Made by a program: the position numbers and the translations under genes. Below are positions 17,360 through 61,138 of a stretch of DNA of 64,000 nt, piece after piece. The stretch comes from Nocardioides sp. L-11A. GTDB lineage: Bacteria > Actinomycetota > Actinomycetes > Propionibacteriales > Nocardioidaceae. Every line of letters starts with the position of its first letter. The stretch's first letter is position 1. The notes under the pieces were generated by a model, which was not told the origin of the DNA, did not search any database, and saw nothing but the letters and a program-made list of their open reading frames with translations. The stretch is from contig CP124680.1 in NCBI GenBank assembly GCA_029961745.1, positions 5,270,001-5,334,000 on the forward strand, given 5' to 3'.

Positions 17360-18313
17360 TCAGGAATCCGCGGCACCGGCCCCCAGCGCCCGTACGACGG
17401 CGGACGGGCTGGGGCGGCCCAGCCGGCCGGCCATCCAGACGCTGGCGGCGACGACGGCGTCGAGGTCGACACCGTGCTCGATGCCGAGACCGGTGAGGAA
17501 CCAGACCAGGTCCTCAGTGGCGAGGTTCCCGGTGGCGCTCTTGGCGTAGGGGCAGCCACCGAGGCCGCCCGCGGACGCGTCGTACGTCGTGACGCCGGAC
17601 TGGAGACCGGCGTGGACATTGGTGAGCGCCTGGCCGTAGGTGTCGTGGAAGTGCAGCGCGAGGCGCTCGCAGCCGACCCCGGCCTCGGCGAAGGCGGCGA
17701 CCAGCGCCCGCACATGACCGGCCGTGGCGACCCCGATGGTGTCGCCCAGGCTGAGCTGTCCGACGCCGAGATCGAGCAGTCGCCGACCGACGGCGACGAC
17801 CTGCTCGATCGGCACGGCGCCCTCCCACGGGTCGCCGAAGCACATCGAGACGTAGCCGCGCACGTCCATGCCCGCCGCCCGAGCCTGCTCGATCGTGGGC
17901 GCGAACATCTCGAACTGCGACGCGAGGGTGCGGTTGAGGTTCTTGCTCGCGAAGGTCTCGGTCGCGGAGGCGAAGACCGCGACGTGGCGCAGCCCGAGCT
18001 CGACGGCACGGTCGAGGCCACGCTGGTTGGGCACCAGGACCGGCAGCCCGCGGGCGGTGTCGCCGAGCTCGGCGGTGAGGCCGGTCATCAGGTCGGCCGC
18101 GTCGGCGAGCTGGGGCACCCACCGCGGGTGCACGAAGCTGGTCGCCTCGACGATCGGGAGGCCGGCAGCGAGCAGGCGCCGCACGAACTCCGCCTTGACC
18201 TCGGTCGGGACGACGGACTTCTCGTTCTGCAGGCCGTCGCGCGCGCCGACCTCGTAGATGGTGACCTTCGCCGGCAGCCCGGCCTCGGGCACGACCATGG
18301 GCAACCCGGTCAT
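17360..18313 (-). CDS. hydroxymethylglutaryl-CoA lyase
   Basis: A 317-residue DRE-TIM metallolyase that cleaves HMG-CoA to acetyl-CoA and acetoacetate, the last step of leucine breakdown. Key features are YEVGARDGLQNEK near the N-terminus (catalytic Asp/Arg), EATSFVHPRWVPQLADA, the metal-binding HFHDTYGQAL and the active-site loop GGLGGCPYAKSATGN with the catalytic Cys. It overlaps the biotin carboxylase stop by 4 nt (ATGA) and completes the carboxylase operon. Confidence 0.93.
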   Translation of the reverse strand: MTGLPMVVPEAGLPAKVTIYEVGARDGLQNEKSVVPTEVKAEFVRRLLAAGLPIVEATSFVHPRWVPQLADAADLMTGLTAELGDTARGLPVLVPNQRGLDRAVELGLRHVAVFASATETFASKNLNRTLASQFEMFAPTIEQARAAGMDVRGYVSMCFGDPWEGAVPIEQVVAVGRRLLDLGVGQLSLGDTIGVATAGHVRALVAAFAEAGVGCERLALHFHDTYGQALTNVHAGLQSGVTTYDASAGGLGGCPYAKSATGNLATEDLVWFLTGLGIEHGVDLDAVVAASVWMAGRLGRPSPSAVVRALGAGAADS

Positions 18314-20154
18314 CGCACCTCCTCCGACTCCACCGACTCGACCACGAACAGCGTCACACCGAGCGCCACCTGCTGGCCGGTGCTCGCGCCGACGGCGGTC
18401 ACCGTGCCGGCGTACGGCGCCTTGAGCGCCAGCTCCATCTTCATCGCCTCGACGACGCCGAGCACGTCGCCCTCGGCCACCGGGTCGCCGACCGCGACCC
18501 TCACGTCGAGGACGGTGCCCGGCATCGGCGCGACGATGGTCCCGTCACCGGCCGCCGCGCCGTGGTCGGCGCCGGCGTCGGGGCGGTCGAATACGTAGCG
18601 CTGACCCTGGTGGGCGAGCTCGACGCGGTGGGCCGAGACGCGTTGCGTCATACGTTCTGAGGGCTCTAGCCCACGGGGCGAATGACGTTGTGCGGGGGAA
18701 AGCTCCACCGAGCCGTCGGTGAACTCCACCACGACCGGCGCCGCGGGGCCGCCCATCCGGAAGCCGTCGCCCGTGAACGGTCCGTCGGGCGCGGTGTTGG
18801 CGTCCAGCCAGAGCCGGGCGGCCAGGGCACGGGCGGGCGCCGGGTCGGGCGCCGGGACCTCGTGGCGGTCCAGCCAGGCGGTGTCGATCCCGCCGGGCAC
18901 GGCGAACTCCTCGCCCGCCGCCAGCATCCGCAGGAACCCGGTGTTGGTGGTCAGCCCGAGGATCGCGGTGTCGTCGAGCGCGGCGACCAGCGCGCGACGG
19001 GCGGCTCGGCGGTCCCGGCCGGCCACGATCACCTTGCCGAGCATCGGGTCGTACGACGTGCTCACTACCTGGCCGGACTCGAGCGCGTGGTCGACCCGCG
19101 CGCCCTCGGGCCACGCTACGACGGTCGCCGTACCGGCCTGCGGGAGGAAGCCGCCGAAGGCGTCCTCGGCGTAGATCCGCGCCTCGATCGCGTGGTCGTA
19201 GAAGCGCAGCCCGGACTGGTCGAAGGGCAACGGATCGCCCGCGGCGACGGAGATCTGCAGTGCCACGAGGTCCGTGCCGCTGTGGATCTCCGTGACCGGG
19301 TGCTCGACCTGCAGCCGGGTGTTCATCTCCAGGAAGTAGAAGTCGCCCGTGCTCGCGTCGAGGAGGTACTCGATGGTGCCGGCGTTCTCGTAGCCGACGG
19401 ACGCGGAGAGCGCGACGGCCGAGCTGTGGATCCGCTCGCGCAGCTCGGCGTCGAGCGCGGGGGCGGGCGCCTCCTCGAGCACCTTCTGGTGGCGGCGCTG
19501 GACGGAGCACTCGCGGGTGCCGAGATGGACGACGGTGCCATGGCTGTCGCCGAGCACCTGGACCTCGATGTGGCGGCCACGCTCGACGTACTTCTCGACC
19601 AGGATCGTGTCGTCGCCGAAGGCGCCGGCGGCCTCGCGCTTCGCGGCCGCCACGGCGGCGTCGAAGTCGGCGGCCGCGCGCACCACGCGCATCCCCTTGC
19701 CGCCGCCGCCGGCGGCGGCCTTGACCAGGACCGGATAGGCGAAGGACGCGGGGTCCGCGTCGACGTCGTACGACGGCACGACGGGCACGCCGGCCGCGAC
19801 GGCCAGGTCGCGGGCGGCGTCCTTGCGGCCCATCTGCTCGATCACCTTGGGGCTCGGCCCGATCCAGGCGATGCCGGCGTCGGTGACGTCCGCGGCGAAG
19901 CCGGCGTTCTCGGAGAGGAAGCCGTAGCCCGGGTGGATCGCGTCGGCACCGGCCTCCCGGGCGGCGGCGAGAACGGCGGCGCCGTCGAGGTAGCCGGGCA
20001 CGGACAGGGCGACGTCGGCGTCGCGCACGTGCAGCGCGTCGGCGTCGAGGTCGGTGTGGACCGCGACCGTGCGGATGCCGAGGTCGCGGCAGGTACGGAA
20101 GACGCGGCGGGCGATCTCGCCCCGGTTGGCGACGAGGAGGGTCTTGATCTCCAC
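18310..20154 (-). CDS. acyl-CoA carboxylase biotin carboxylase/BCCP subunit (methylcrotonyl-CoA type)
   Basis: A 614-residue fused subunit: biotin carboxylase (residues 1-450; LLVANRGEIA, ATP-grasp glycine loop AAAGGGGKGMR, EMNTRLQVEHPVTE) plus a C-terminal biotinyl domain with EAMKM (biotinylated Lys about 572). It carboxylates biotin for the partner carboxyltransferase encoded upstream. Residues about 489-503, in the linker between the domains, are encoded by a 45-bp palindromic repeat inserted in frame. HMG-CoA lyase next door indicates 3-methylcrotonyl-CoA as substrate; geranyl- or propionyl-CoA are alternatives. GTG 20154 gives the typical family N-terminus. Confidence 0.92.
   Translation of the reverse strand: MEIKTLLVANRGEIARRVFRTCRDLGIRTVAVHTDLDADALHVRDADVALSVPGYLDGAAVLAAAREAGADAIHPGYGFLSENAGFAADVTDAGIAWIGPSPKVIEQMGRKDAARDLAVAAGVPVVPSYDVDADPASFAYPVLVKAAAGGGGKGMRVVRAAADFDAAVAAAKREAAGAFGDDTILVEKYVERGRHIEVQVLGDSHGTVVHLGTRECSVQRRHQKVLEEAPAPALDAELRERIHSSAVALSASVGYENAGTIEYLLDASTGDFYFLEMNTRLQVEHPVTEIHSGTDLVALQISVAAGDPLPFDQSGLRFYDHAIEARIYAEDAFGGFLPQAGTATVVAWPEGARVDHALESGQVVSTSYDPMLGKVIVAGRDRRAARRALVAALDDTAILGLTTNTGFLRMLAAGEEFAVPGGIDTAWLDRHEVPAPDPAPARALAARLWLDANTAPDGPFTGDGFRMGGPAAPVVVEFTDGSVELSPAQRHSPRGLEPSERMTQRVSAHRVELAHQGQRYVFDRPDAGADHGAAAGDGTIVAPMPGTVLDVRVAVGDPVAEGDVLGVVEAMKMELALKAPYAGTVTAVGASTGQQVALGVTLFVVESVESEEVR
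18645..18689. repeat. 45-bp palindromic element family E, in-frame copy in carboxylase gene
   Basis: GCGTCATACGTTC, an inner AGGGCT/AGCCC stem and ATGACGTT form a 45-bp palindrome matching 37 of 45 bases of an intergenic copy at 52249-52293. On the coding strand it encodes a hydrophilic insert (RHSPRGLEPSERMTQ) between the biotin carboxylase and biotinyl domains, with no frameshift. Confidence 0.8.
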
Positions 20155-20159
20155 GGGGA

Positions 20160-21770
20160 TCACATCCTGAAGATGCCGTAGTGGGGGGCGGGCGTCGGCA
20201 CGGCCGTCGTGATCTCGAGCGCCATACCGAGGATGCGGCGGGTGTCGGCGGGGTCGATCACGCCGTCGTCCCACAGCCGCGCGGATGCGTAGTACGGCGA
20301 GCCCTGGGTCTCGTACTGCTCCCTGATCGGCTGTTTGAACGCTTCGACATCGGGGTCGTCCTCGCGGCCGGCGACCGTGGCCAGGACGTTGGCGGCCTGG
20401 TCGCCGCCCATCACGGAGATCCGGGCGTTGGGCCACATCCACAGGAAGCGGGGGTCGTAGGCACGTCCGCACATGCCGTAGTTGCCGGCGCCGAAGGAGC
20501 CGCCGATGACGACGGTCAGCTTCGGCACGACCGAGCAGGCGACGGCGGTGACGAGCTTGGCACCGTCGCGGGCGATGCCGCGGTTCTCGTACTCACGGCC
20601 GACCATGAAGCCGGAGATGTTCTGCAGGAACAGCAGCGGGATCCCACGCTGGTTGCACAGCTCGATGAAGTGCGCGCCTTTGAGCGCGCTCTCGGAGAAG
20701 AGGATGCCATTGTTGGCGACGATGCCGACCGGATGGCCGTGGATCCGGGCGAAGCCGCAGACCAGCGTCTCGCCGTACAGCTGCTTGAACTCCTGGAGCC
20801 GGCTGCCGTCGACCAGGCGCCGGATCACCTCGCGGACGTCGTACGGCGTGCGGGTGCTCGTCGGCACGACGTCGTAGATCGACTCGGGCGACTCCAGAGG
20901 ATCGTCGACGGGCGCGTCAGAAAAGTTGCGGTTTGGGACCAAACCGTGCAATTCCCGGCCGCCGACATGCGGTCTCTGCCCAATCGGCAGGGTGGCGACG
21001 ATGCCGCGCAGGATCCGCAGCGCGTGGGCATCATCGTCGGCGAGGTGGTCGACGACCCCGGACTTGCGGGCGTGCACGTCGCCGCCGCCGAGGTCCTCGG
21101 CCGTGACGACCTCACCGGTCGCGGCCTTCACCAGCGGCGGCCCCCCGAGGAAGATGGTGCCCTGGTTCTTGACGATCACGGTCTCGTCCGACATCGCCGG
21201 GACATAGGCCCCGCCGGCCGTGCAGGAGCCCATCACGGCGGCGAGCTGCGGGATCCCGCGCGCGGACATGGTGGCCTGGTTGAAGAAGATCCGGCCGAAG
21301 TGCTCCTTGTCGGGGAACACCTCGTCCTGCATCGGCAGGAAGGCGCCGCCGGAGTCGACGAGGTAGACGCACGGCAGGTCGTTCTCGGCGGCGACGGTCT
21401 GCGCCCGCAGGTGCTTCTTGACCGTCATCGGGTAGTAGGTGCCGCCCTTCACGGTCGCGTCGTTGGCGACGACCATGACGTTGCGCCCCTCGACCCGGCC
21501 GATGCCGGCGACAACGCCGGCCGCGGGAACCGCGAAATCCTGGTCGGGGCCACCCGGCTTGCCGTACATTCCGTACGCCGCCAGCGGCGCCAGCTCCAGG
21601 AAGGGGCTGCCCGGGTCGAGCAGGCCGTCGACCCGGTCGCGGGCGAGCAGCTTGCCCCGGTCGGTGTGCTTGGTGCGGGCCGCCTCGCTGCCGCCCTGGC
21701 GCACGCGGGCGAGCCGCTCGCGCAGGTCGGCAGCGAGATCGCGGAGCGTGGGCTCGGAGGTCTCGGACAC
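20160..21770 (-). CDS. acyl-CoA carboxylase carboxyltransferase (methylcrotonyl-CoA type)
   Basis: A 536-residue carboxyltransferase, first gene of the leucine-type operon. Both crotonase-fold halves are visible: [20 protein letters not shown] and [16 protein letters not shown] in the N-half, [14 protein letters not shown] and [20 protein letters not shown] in the C-half. These motifs favour methylcrotonyl-CoA over propionyl-CoA. The GTG at 21770 is chosen because TAACCT lies 7 nt upstream. Residues about 260-285 contain an AT-richer, rare-codon insert not expected in the family (see the repeat at 20915-20990). The stop lies 5 bp before the biotin carboxylase start. Confidence 0.92.
20915..20990. 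repeat. AT-richer palindromic segment inside carboxyltransferase gene
   Basis: The plus strand reads TTGC-GGTTTGG-ga-CCAAACC-gt-GCAA around 20926-20951, followed by a second small palindrome CTGCC-caatc-GGCAG (20976-20990). The segment has visibly lower GC and includes codons rare in this genome (TTG, TTT, TCT). It encodes about 25 residues including [13 protein letters not shown] between the two crotonase halves, where I would expect a shorter linker. It looks like a second family of in-frame palindromic insert. Confidence 0.6.
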
Positions 21771-34742: not shown

Positions 34743-34787
34743 GAGCCCGATCGCGGGAGGTGAGTCCCACCTCCCGCGATCGGGCTC
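34743..34787. terminator. strong hairpin downstream of the secreted propeller gene
   Basis: A perfect 20-bp stem (GAGCCCGATCGCGGGAGGTG and complement) with a 5-nt loop lies 14 bp past the stop of the minus-strand gene at 34801. No U tract, but the stability suggests a terminator. The remaining ~200 bp toward 34544 has no other feature that I see. Confidence 0.75.
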
Positions 34788-43714: not shown

Positions 43715-43801
43715 GAACAACCGGTCGACCGGTTGTTCTGTCACTTGTCGGGCGTTGCAACGCCCGTCAAGTGACGGAATCGCCGGTCGACCGGTGATTC
43801 C
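43715..43801. repeat. triple-palindrome array, family B copy 1
   Basis: Three consecutive palindromes: a perfect 24-bp one centred on GGTCGACC (43715-43738, GAACAACC... type), a 36-bp one GTCACTTG-t-CGGGCGTTGCAACGCCCG-t-CAAGTGAC (43740-43775) with one mismatched pair, and a 26-bp one GGAATC-g-CCGGTCGACCGG-t-GATTCC (43776-43801). A related array in opposite order lies at 60958-61064. It is in the convergent gap before the DUF2470 stop. Confidence 0.85.
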
Positions 43802-50719: not shown

Positions 50720-52249
50720 GTGAGTAGTACGTGGGGGGACTGGAAGCAGGACCAGCGGATAGCGGAGGCCGAGGCCCAGCTCGACGCGGAGCGGCGGGCG
50801 CGCAACCGCCTGGCCGAGCAGATCCGCGCCCAGCAGGGCAACACCCAGGCCCAGCTCGACCGACTGACCCGGGCCCTGGTCGCCCTGGTCGAGCACGAGG
50901 ACATCCGCTCCGAGCTGGGGCAGTACGCCGACGCGGCGGCCTGCCGGCGCTACGCGCGCGAGGTCGTGTCGACCGTGGTGGCGACCGGCGGGGCGGCCGT
51001 GCGGGACTCGGCCGAGCCGGGCGACGTACCGGGCTATTGGCTGGCCGCCGCGGCGCGCGGGGTCGCGGCCACCGCCCGCGGGGAGGCCACCGGCGGCCCG
51101 CTGCTCGAGGAGGCGGCGCTGCGGGACCGCGGCCGGACCGCCCTCCTGCTCACCCTGCTCGGCGCCCTCACCCGCGATCCCCGCTGGGCGCCCGCTCCCG
51201 GCGACGGCGTGCTGCCCGACGCCGTGGTCCTCACCCAGGCGCAGCGGCAGGCCTGGCTCGCGATCGCCGAGGGCCGCCTGCCGGGTACGTTCACCGACGC
51301 CCTCGCCGAGGCGCTCGGCCGCCTGGTCGCCGCCACCGGCAGCGCCGGCCCCGACGAGGTCGCGGCGTGGCTCGAGGGCCAGGTGCCGGCCGACCGCCGC
51401 GCGCTGCCCGCCGAGCGGGCCGCGGCCCAGCTGGAGGTGCTGCACCGGGTGCTCAGCACCGGCGCCTCGGCCGGCACCGCCACCGCGCCCGAGTCGCCCG
51501 AGTCGCCCGAGTCACCGGAAGTTCCGGAGGATCCGCTGGCCGACTGCCTGCGCTCGCTGATCGACGAGGGCTCGCCCGGCGAGGCGGAGATCCTGGACCG
51601 GATGGCCACCGCCCGCGCCGACATGGGCTTCCTCGACGAGCGGGTCGCGACCGAGACGGCGGTGTGGAACGCGAGCGCGGGCGACGTCCTCAGCCTGCTG
51701 CTGCGCGACCTGGCCCGGCCGGTCACCGACGGCAGGTACGCCGTCGCGCGCCGCGCACTCGCCCCGGTGCTCCGGGCGATCGGCGACGAGCTGGTGCAGC
51801 AGGCCGCCGTACCCGCCGCGAACACCCGGACCGTGGAGGTGGTCGGCGAGGTGCTGACCGTCGACCGCGCGGGTGCCGAGGCCGGCTGGCAGCAGCGGGT
51901 GACCTCCGGGTTCGACCGCCGCCACCCGCTCGACCGTCGGCTGCTGCCCGCCGGGGTCGGCATCCTCGGCCTCGGGGCGGTGTGCTGCCTGCTGGGCCTG
52001 GTGTCCGGCGGCTTCCTGGTCGTCGGACTGCTCGGCGGCTGCGTGGGCACCGGGCTGGTCGTCGCGGCCCTCCACCAGCGCCGCGGGCTCGACCAGGGCC
52101 GCACCAGCACCCTCGCCGCGACCGGACGGCAGATCGACCAGCAGGCCGCGACGGTGCGCGACGAGGGCGAGCGCAGTGCCGCGGCCGCGAGCCGGGCCGG
52201 CGAGCTGCACCGCTCGGTGGCCGGCGTCCTGGCCGGTGTCCCGTCCTAG
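50720..52249 (+). CDS. coiled-coil, C-terminal membrane-hairpin protein of unknown function
   Basis: A 509-residue protein that I do not recognise. Residues about 10-55 are a coiled coil (RIAEAEAQLDAERRARNRLAEQ); a SPESPESPESPE linker sits near residue 265; two hydrophobic segments (GVGILGLGAVCCLLGLVSGGF, VVGLLGGCVGTGLVVAA) lie near 415-455 before a short charged tail. It could be a membrane-anchored scaffold. GTG 50720 has AGGGA upstream. Its TAG stop overlaps by one base the family E palindrome. Confidence 0.6.
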   Translation: MSSTWGDWKQDQRIAEAEAQLDAERRARNRLAEQIRAQQGNTQAQLDRLTRALVALVEHEDIRSELGQYADAAACRRYAREVVSTVVATGGAAVRDSAEPGDVPGYWLAAAARGVAATARGEATGGPLLEEAALRDRGRTALLLTLLGALTRDPRWAPAPGDGVLPDAVVLTQAQRQAWLAIAEGRLPGTFTDALAEALGRLVAATGSAGPDEVAAWLEGQVPADRRALPAERAAAQLEVLHRVLSTGASAGTATAPESPESPESPEVPEDPLADCLRSLIDEGSPGEAEILDRMATARADMGFLDERVATETAVWNASAGDVLSLLLRDLARPVTDGRYAVARRALAPVLRAIGDELVQQAAVPAANTRTVEVVGEVLTVDRAGAEAGWQQRVTSGFDRRHPLDRRLLPAGVGILGLGAVCCLLGLVSGGFLVVGLLGGCVGTGLVVAALHQRRGLDQGRTSTLAATGRQIDQQAATVRDEGERSAAAASRAGELHRSVAGVLAGVPS

Positions 52250-52293
52250 CGTCATACGTTCCGTGGGCTTGAGCCCCCAGGACGTATGACGTT
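52249..52293. repeat. 45-bp palindromic element family E, intergenic copy
   Basis: GCGTCATACGTTC...GGGCT-tg-AGCCC...ACGTATGACGTT matches 37 of 45 bases of the in-frame copy inside the biotin carboxylase gene (18645-18689), same orientation. It begins at the last base of the preceding TAG stop and lies between convergent genes, where it probably also acts as a terminator hairpin. Confidence 0.85.
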
Positions 52294-59405: not shown

Positions 59406-60988
59406 CCGCCCCCTCCACCCGGATCACCCCGGGCCTCGCCGGCGTCCCCACCCACGTGGATGTCGTCGTCATCGGCCTCGGCGTGACCGGCGCGGGCGTG
59501 GCCCTCGACGCCGCCGCCCGCGGCCTCTCCGTCCTGTCCGTCGACGCCCACGACCTGGCCTTCGGCACGTCCCGCTTCTCCTCGAAGCTCGTGCACGGCG
59601 GGCTGCGCTATCTCGCCTCCGGCCAGGTCGGCATCGCCCACGAGAGCGCGGTCGAGCGCGGCATCCTGATGGAGACCACGGCGCCGCACCTCACTCGGCC
59701 GCTGCCGTCGATCATCCCGCTGTCCGCCGGCGTCAGCCGCCCGATGGGCACCCTCGCCGGCGCGGGCTTCCTGGGCGGCGACCTGCTCCGCCGTGCCGCC
59801 GGCACGAGCGGCGACACCCTCCCCCGCCCGCGGCGGCTCAGCGCTGCCGAGACCCGACGGATCGCGCCACCGCTGCGCACCGACGGCCTGCGCGGCGCCT
59901 ACCTCGGCTGGGACGGCCAGCTCGAGGACGACGCCCGGCTGGTCACCACCATCGCCCGGACCGCGGCCGAGCACGGCGCCCACGTGCGCACCCACGCCCG
60001 GGTCGTCGCCGCGACCGGCCGTGAGGTGCGCCTGCGCGACGAGCTCACCGGCGCCACGGCCACCGTCGCCACCCGGACCGTGGTCAACGCGACCGGCGTC
60101 TGGGCCGGCGACCTGGTCGACGACGTCCGGCTCCGCCCCTCGCGCGGCACCCATCTGGTGCTGCGGGCCGAGACCCTGCCCGGGCTCGACGTCGCGGTCT
60201 TCGCGCCGATCCCGGGCGAGACCAACCGCTTCGTCCTCGTCCTCCCCCAGCCCGACGGCCAGTTCTACGTCGGCCTCACCGACGAGCCCGCCGACGGCCC
60301 GGTGCCCGACGTGGCGGAGCCCACCGAGGTCGAGATCGGCTTCCTGCTCGACGTCGTCGCCGCGTCGTTCGCCCGGCCCCTGCGACGCGCCGACGTGGTC
60401 GGCGCCTTCGCCGGGCTGCGGCCGCTGCTCGACAGCGGCCCCGGCGAGGGCGACTCGACCGCCGACCTGTCCCGCAAGCACGCCGTGCTCACCTCGCCCA
60501 CCGGCGTGGTGACCATCGTCGGCGGCAAGCTCACGACCTACCGCCGGATGGCGGAGGACGCCGTCGACGCGGCGGTCGCCCACGCCGGCCTCCCCGCCGG
60601 GCCGTGCCTCACCGCGACCCTCCCGCTCGCCGGTGCCGCCCCCCGTGCCGCGCTCGCCGACCGCGCGGCGCAGGCCGACCACCCGGGGACCGCCCGCCTG
60701 GTCCGGAGGTACGGCGCGGACGCGGACCTCGTCCTCGCCGCCGCCCGCGCGGCCAGCGGCTGGACCGAGGCCGACCTGCTCGCCCCGCTCGCCGAGGGCA
60801 TCCCCACCGTGGCGGCCGAGCTGTTCTTCGGTGTCACCCACGAGGGTGCCGCCGACGTCGCCGACCTGCTCGACCGGCGTACCCGGATCGGACTCGTGCC
60901 CGCCGACCGCGCCCTCGCCGTCCCCGCTGCTGAGCGGGTGCTGGCGCGGTGCAGGAATCGCCGGTCGACCGGCGAAACTGTCACTTGA
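59402..60988 (+). CDS. glpD: glycerol-3-phosphate dehydrogenase, FAD-dependent
   Basis: A 528-residue GlpD-type enzyme oxidising glycerol-3-phosphate to DHAP, membrane-associated. The FAD motif VVIGLGVTGAGVALDAAARG and the GlpD signature GTSRFSSKLVHGGLRYL are diagnostic; IVGGKLTTYRRMAEDAVDA is the C-terminal FAD segment. It overlaps the TetR stop and mirrors mycobacterial glpD1. The last residues (RNRRSTGETVT) and the TGA stop are encoded by the family B palindromic array, so the C-terminus is an addition from the repeat. Confidence 0.92.
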   Translation: MTAPSTRITPGLAGVPTHVDVVVIGLGVTGAGVALDAAARGLSVLSVDAHDLAFGTSRFSSKLVHGGLRYLASGQVGIAHESAVERGILMETTAPHLTRPLPSIIPLSAGVSRPMGTLAGAGFLGGDLLRRAAGTSGDTLPRPRRLSAAETRRIAPPLRTDGLRGAYLGWDGQLEDDARLVTTIARTAAEHGAHVRTHARVVAATGREVRLRDELTGATATVATRTVVNATGVWAGDLVDDVRLRPSRGTHLVLRAETLPGLDVAVFAPIPGETNRFVLVLPQPDGQFYVGLTDEPADGPVPDVAEPTEVEIGFLLDVVAASFARPLRRADVVGAFAGLRPLLDSGPGEGDSTADLSRKHAVLTSPTGVVTIVGGKLTTYRRMAEDAVDAAVAHAGLPAGPCLTATLPLAGAAPRAALADRAAQADHPGTARLVRRYGADADLVLAAARAASGWTEADLLAPLAEGIPTVAAELFFGVTHEGAADVADLLDRRTRIGLVPADRALAVPAAERVLARCRNRRSTGETVT

Positions 60989-61064
60989 CGGCCATTGCAA
61001 CGCCCGACAAGTGACAGAAATGCCCGTCAAGTGCAGGAACAACCGGTCGACCGGTTATTCCTGC
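60958..61064. repeat. triple-palindrome array, family B copy 2
   Basis: Order opposite to copy 1: a perfect 18-bp palindrome TCGCCGGTCGACCGGCGA (60958-60975), arms CTGTCACTTG/CAAGTGACAG (60978-60987, 61008-61017) with a partial extra CGTCAAGTG, and a 32-bp near-perfect palindrome GCAGGAA...TTCCTGC with GGTCGACC centre (61033-61064). It begins inside glpD and supplies its stop codon (60986-60988). Confidence 0.85.
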
Positions 61065-61138
61065 AGCCCCCAGCGATGAGTTTTCCGATCGACCCCGGTC
61101 ACCCCATCAGGCAGACTGGCGAGACCACGGGGGCAGCG

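Follow-up and report, generated by a model that had tools for sequence, protein, structure and literature searches.

The present report concerns a window of 64,000 bp from the genome of Nocardioides sp. L-11A (C1:5270001-5334000 of a single contig of 5,684,321 bp) and a palindromic element at its positions 18645..18689 (+), which lies in frame inside the gene of an acyl-CoA carboxylase. This element turned out to be one copy of a dispersed, genus-wide family of palindromes, and copies of the same family enclose a gene for a two-part protein with an AbiEi-like and a DUF559 nuclease half. We consider it probable that the palindrome is a repeat of the REP (repetitive extragenic palindromic) kind served by a dedicated nuclease in place of the RAYT (REP-associated tyrosine transposase); that the nuclease binds, cuts and thereby copies its palindrome is what we infer from the data given below. 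The initial annotation of the window had recognized a dispersed palindromic element placed in frame in coding sequence, and both the repeat family and the in-frame copies were confirmed. It overlooked the location of most copies near the 3′-ends of genes, the distribution of the family over the genus and its tie to the nuclease gene.

The second copy within the window occupies positions 52249..52293 (+) with the core at 52250-52291. It is located between convergent genes, so that, according to our own gene caller, the gene of the plus strand stops directly at the palindrome and that of the minus strand ends about 12 bp past it. The same site holds a palindrome in Nocardioides sp. LHD-245 (loci L005/L074). 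Letter-by-letter comparison reproduced the previously noted match of the two window copies in 37/45 bases in the same orientation, and this likeness is far beyond chance. If up to 3 mismatches are allowed, the palindrome has 16 matches per strand in the genome, while a looser pattern reveals 18 places, and the reversed control gave 0 in both cases; the motif is therefore repeated, and the suspicion that it might be unique apart from chance fails. The number of copies should be at least 19, because a pattern with fixed arms also gives 18 places yet misses the copy at C1:2432694. The core, CGTCATNCG...CGNATGACG, spans 42 bp (18646-18687 for the copy within the carboxylase gene, CGTCATACG ... CGAATGACG). 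Its length is mostly fixed, its centre is variable, and pairing reaches a few bases further. CGTCAT stands at both ends in 41/43 listed copies, and CGTC is paired with GACG by all four pairs in 41/41 distinct rows, both counts being favoured by search patterns that prefer such ends. At the gathering score no Rfam family matches the palindrome (20 loci).

Placement of 18 copies was estimated with the same codon-based gene caller. Eight are found between convergent genes, five in spacers of tandem genes, one between divergent genes, one at a gene end and three inside genes, namely the carboxylase gene, tilS and the gene of a chelatase-like AAA/VWA protein (L014). Copies in convergent spacers mostly have a stop codon no more than about 20 bp away. 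These 18 copies thus have the general features of REPs, i.e. short palindromes of many copies found chiefly in intergenic spacers close to the 3′-ends of genes. Some further strong hairpins of the window are about as far from stop codons as these copies, and the use of palindromes as terminators is therefore plausible. In the pair of loci L012/L017 a mycofactocin-type radical SAM gene takes its C-terminus and stop codon from one copy, and a thiE-like gene may owe its start codon or its N-terminus to another; these two names, as well as the chelatase-like one, were read from the sequence by eye, without family search.

The partner gene is located outside the window, at G000:C1:4391216-4392175 of the same genome, between two palindrome copies. 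The N-terminal half of its product is an AbiEi-like DNA-binding/nucleotidyltransferase-like part, while the C-terminal half is a PD-(D/E)XK nuclease of the DUF559/PvuRts1I-like type. The latter assignment is based on a match to PF04480 with 20.9 bits against a cut-off of 20.6 (the homologue from genome G046, with 19.7, is just below), on a weak match to the PvuRts1I profile (E 0.026), and on residues D248, E259, D261, H264 and H265 of the catalytic motif, which are invariant in 30 aligned rows. None of the folds listed by VIA-align spans both halves of the nuclease, but this does not by itself point to a new fold. Among 7991 scored candidates 1546 relatives of the protein were registered; a tblastn search of plasmids gave 0 matches for the whole protein and six weak ones for its nuclease half.

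In the genus the pattern with fixed arms has matches in 152/215 genomes, with up to 88 per genome, while the control has them in 11/215. The reversed control was 0 in 204/215 genomes and reached a maximum of 7 in G123, where the true count is 33. In five genomes (G063, G091, G196, G203 and G208) it exceeds the true count, and counts of one to few can therefore be due to chance. The covariance model, with no more than 25 candidates scored per genome, found matches in 110/215 genomes. A closer form is present in Pimelobacter simplex 3E, Nocardioides sp. LHD-245, N. carbamazepini, N. albidus and others (25 stretches); those from Paraburkholderia and Actinomycetaceae may be chance matches. In genome G049 palindromes are arranged in tandem and recur about every 73 bp, in the manner of REP clusters (C1:1243694-1243879, 1598575-1598833 and 1680913-1681170).

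Presence of the palindromes is associated with that of the nuclease. An orthologue (E < 1e-50) was found in 95/215 genomes; among the others there are genomes with remote DUF559 relatives, genomes with no relative and one (G196) with a fragment. At least one palindrome is present in 90/95 genomes with the orthologue versus 62/120 without it, and at least three in 83/95 versus 34/120. As a separate observation, G227 carries 69 copies without an orthologue and G226 carries 84 copies with it, which, if both are close relatives, is a natural test of what follows the loss of the nuclease.

Association was also obvious at the level of individual loci. In 27 of the 30 best loci a palindrome of the exact pattern is situated within 200 bp of the gene, in 17 of them on both sides, and the three remaining loci carry variants. 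For a wider comparison we used 87 homologue loci, 47 of which were returned by searches and 40 were regions chosen by hand, among which were loci from other genera and from two further families, seven remote relatives and four orthologue loci lacking exact-pattern copies. An identical pair of 9-mer arms was found on both sides of the gene in 48/87 loci versus 0/221 ordinary genes, and an arm of one side recurs on the other in 72/87 versus 2/221. Having an arm pair on one or both sides is by itself uninformative (85/87 versus 106/221). By a cruder score, 49/84 loci are above the maximum of 192 controls, three loci having been dropped owing to short flanks. Ordinary genes served here as a negative control, replacing the seven remote DUF559 relatives (about 33% identity, L247-L253) originally meant for this purpose, which are themselves accompanied by palindromes, unrelated to the family, with an identical arm pair on either side in 4/7. 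Flanking by palindromes may be general for AbiEi-DUF559 proteins. Judged by eye, the sequence of the palindrome largely follows the protein tree: arms CGTCATNCG are typical of most of the genus, CGTCATGGC of one nuclease clade, CGTCATCCC of another and CGTCCGAAG of the 8-9-Mb family f3, whose palindrome has the form CGTCCGAA...TTCGGACG, while remote relatives have unrelated words. CGTCCT arms appear in two separate places of the tree.

Copies of one genome resemble each other more than they resemble copies of the same site in other genomes. Between genomes, copies at shared sites differ by 8.0 bases on average (17 comparisons), whereas against other sites of the same genome the value is 3.0. 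The sites compared were tilS, carboxylase and both sides of the nuclease gene in up to four genomes, with pairs of L-11A and LHD-245 excluded. P. simplex copies have a common GATC loop and mostly CATTCG arms, while in G145, the copy set of which came from the covariance model and protein searches, CATAGG arms prevail. Two circumstances limit this comparison: the copies of L-11A and LHD-245 cannot be told apart as two sets (4.58 and 4.69 differences within genomes, 4.62 between them), and the P. simplex set is narrowed by the way it was ascertained, in part with a similar pattern.

In-frame gain of the element is, to judge by the aligned sequences, best proved by tilS. Among 21 orthologues, including that of L-11A, the distance between fixed anchors is 96 nt in four (L-11A, LHD-245, G130 and G145), while in the other 17 it is 48 nt in 11 cases, 51 nt in three, 63 nt in two and 69 nt in one, with no palindrome in any of them. 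The insert is a clean one of 48 nt, or 16 residues, and leaves the frame open.

The carboxylase gene is a more complicated case. It encodes the alpha subunit with biotin carboxylase and biotinyl domains (PF00289, PF02786, PF02785, PF00364) on the minus strand; the frame is open at 18310-20472 (720 aa), and a likelier start limits the gene to 18310..20154. Relatives with E ≤ 1e-100 are present in 117/118 genomes of the genus, paralogues counted. The element covers approximately residues 595-609 of the 720-aa frame. With Biotin_carb_C at 430-535 and Biotin_lipoyl at 645-710 it is therefore located in the linker, and Pfam domain limits on both sides agree with the initial annotation on this point. 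The accompanying estimate of about 15 added residues is not exact: the linker has 38 aa in L-11A, LHD-245 and G145 and 28-29 aa in G130 and G041, which are close palindrome-free relatives, so that the difference is 9-10 residues and not a clean 15. The arms of the L-11A copy are less perfect than those of the orthologous copy of LHD-245. As for a wide distribution of the same linker residues, among 31 aligned carboxylase genes, all from the genus, L-11A, LHD-245 and G145 have the palindrome in common, and the others displayed contain either no palindrome or different hairpins in the linker. No clean empty site was found among these 31 genes, the linker differing in all directions; owing to this high variability and to the other hairpins in other species, the insertion event in this gene is not a clean one. 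The spot has probably undergone repeated insertion or decay. In G064 the same spot of the linker (L109, about 1830-1860) bears an unrelated palindrome with the core CAGATCGTTCGATCGAACGATCTG; the best nuclease match of this genome has only E 4.9e-20, and the palindrome may belong to another DUF559 nuclease. On the whole, the 48-nt insert in 4/21 tilS genes and the in-frame copy in carboxylase have the in-frame character of Rickettsia palindromic elements. This parallel, drawn already in the initial annotation, is apt as an analogy of description rather than of compared sequences, and in-frame REPs are known in several groups according to the main text of a survey that treated GTAG and CGTC REPs in 2013 (PMC3733652).

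Copying of the palindromes by cutting and repair fits these data, because the nuclease is enclosed by its own site, many sites are solo, site and protein change jointly and unlinked copies are alike. A dimer of helix-turn-helix (HTH) halves would bind two conserved arms, CGTCATNCG and its complement, spaced by about 32 bp from centre to centre. The nuclease half would then cut or nick DNA within the palindrome or next to it, and subsequent repair would copy palindromes from site to site, including entry into non-homologous sites, spreading them and keeping copies of one genome alike. Copies would persist mainly where they are harmless, in the vicinity of stop codons and in convergent spacers, the hairpin possibly acting there as a terminator, and occasional ones might be kept in frame in a linker or loop of a protein, as in carboxylase and tilS. 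One can go further and assume that AbiEi-HTH/DUF559 nucleases are a general palindrome-spreading class and that related DUF559 nucleases mobilize all CGTC-tagged REPs, including RPE-4/RPE-6 and dRS3, each clade copying its own palindrome by break repair and not by transposase chemistry; this extension is a tentative one, and we regard it as rather doubtful.

AbiEi antitoxins are autorepressors. The AbiEi-like protein might be an autorepressor or a defence factor, with the palindromes as its operators near the gene and as conserved terminators or nucleoid sites elsewhere, their sameness being due to selection for binding and not to copying. The protein indeed combines a winged HTH with the C-terminal AbiEi fold and matches the PADLOC profile of AbiEi; palindromes are often situated upstream of its gene too, and copies in L-11A, mostly near gene 3′-ends, look like terminators. 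Operators, however, hardly explain copies downstream of the nuclease gene, the in-frame gain inside tilS and in-frame copies in the carboxylase and chelatase-like genes, nor the joint change of arms and loop in unlinked copies, which affects even loop bases such as GATC of P. simplex. We therefore hold this explanation to be unlikely.

It is very improbable that we deal with ordinary GTAG-type REPs moved by a RAYT of the IS200-like type, next to which the DUF559 gene is a bystander. Size, copy number and positions of the palindromes are REP-like, and the arrays of G049 with their period of about 73 bp would suit such REPs, but the constant GTAG end is missing, the gene flanked by palindromes is that of the DUF559 protein, and Y1_Tnp (PF01797) has 0 matches in the L-11A genome, the one searched within the genus, versus 5/14 control genomes, so that membership among RAYT REPtrons was rejected. 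Equally poor are the chances of immobile, vertically inherited terminators, i.e. ancestral 3′ hairpins preserved by their function, with copies inside genes arising by chance. L-11A shares eight aligned sites with LHD-245 and one with P. simplex 3E, as such inheritance would require, but sequence is conserved beyond structure, and flanking of the nuclease gene as well as presence and absence in tilS find no place in this scheme. One intergenic candidate for an empty site was found (L015 of L-11A versus L072 of LHD-245), with flanks that align and a gap holding other sequence. Likewise very improbable are miniature inverted-repeat transposable elements, i.e. the joined ends left over from a DDE insertion sequence that had these terminal repeats, since although each palindrome could be read as two inverted ends, the listed forward-strand half-site matches of L-11A comprise 11 with 0 mismatches, all of them known copies, none with 1 and, from 2 mismatches on, those that look like chance, while the flanks have no constant target duplication.

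A nuclease-served repeat would thus resemble known systems only in part. The main text of the 2013 survey (PMC3733652) describes REPs at 3′-ends, between convergent genes and inside genes, and RAYT genes flanked by GTAG REPs. Like these REPtrons, the system considered here combines an enzyme gene lying between copies of its own palindrome with many short palindromes, some inside genes and most of them in convergent spacers or close to the 3′-ends of genes; unlike them, its partner is an AbiEi-like/DUF559 nuclease and not a HUH tyrosine transposase, the ends are CGTC, and the palindrome is nearly full-length, 42 bp or more. CGTC REPs, among them RPE-4/RPE-6 of Rickettsia conorii and neisserial dRS3, also start with CGTC followed by AT and occur in genes and at 3′-ends, and in the same text they seem to be without an enzyme. 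They are defined there by an unpaired CGTC at one end, a stem of 8-9 bp and a CCA tail, whereas our palindromes, compared with this description, have CGTC at both ends paired with GACG, arms of 19-20 bp and no CCA tail. Having neither the unpaired tag, nor the short stem, nor the tail, they were not assigned to CGTC REPs despite the CGTCAT start. The partner itself differs from PD-(D/E)XK nucleases of the PvuRts1I, AbaSI and ngo0050 type by fusion to the AbiEi-like half and flanking by its own palindromes, and from AbiEi antitoxins by the nuclease domain. Nocardioides, Actinobacteria and DUF559 are not mentioned in the main text of the survey, and among open-licence papers of PubMed Central (PMC) no published link of DUF559/Vsr-like nucleases or of this genus to REP-like repeats was found.

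Apart from this family, the window contains a second, three-part palindromic repeat present twice, at 43715-43790 and 60952-61066 (GAACAACCGGTCGACCGG..., GTCACTTGTCGGGC..., GAATCGCCGGTCGACC...). It is possibly another repeat family; one of its parts was also found in the P. simplex locus L066. A palindrome with 20-bp arms at 34743-34787 is unrelated in sequence to the CGTCAT family. Positions 528-711 of L010 match the actinobacterial small RNA Ms_IGR-5 in Rfam with 108.5 bits.

Small repeats of the REP type are widespread in bacteria, and in the main text of the 2013 survey one of their two large superfamilies is without a known enzyme (PMC3733652). Here a palindrome family is tied, across many genomes and by matching sequence changes, to a class of nucleases for which no link to REPs was found among open-licence PMC papers, and this suggests an unrecognized route by which small repeats spread through genomes. 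It offers a concrete protein-DNA pair for studying the spread of repeats, the upkeep of their likeness and short in-frame inserts in proteins. DUF559 proteins are numerous, and many of them may have palindromes of their own adjoining their genes.
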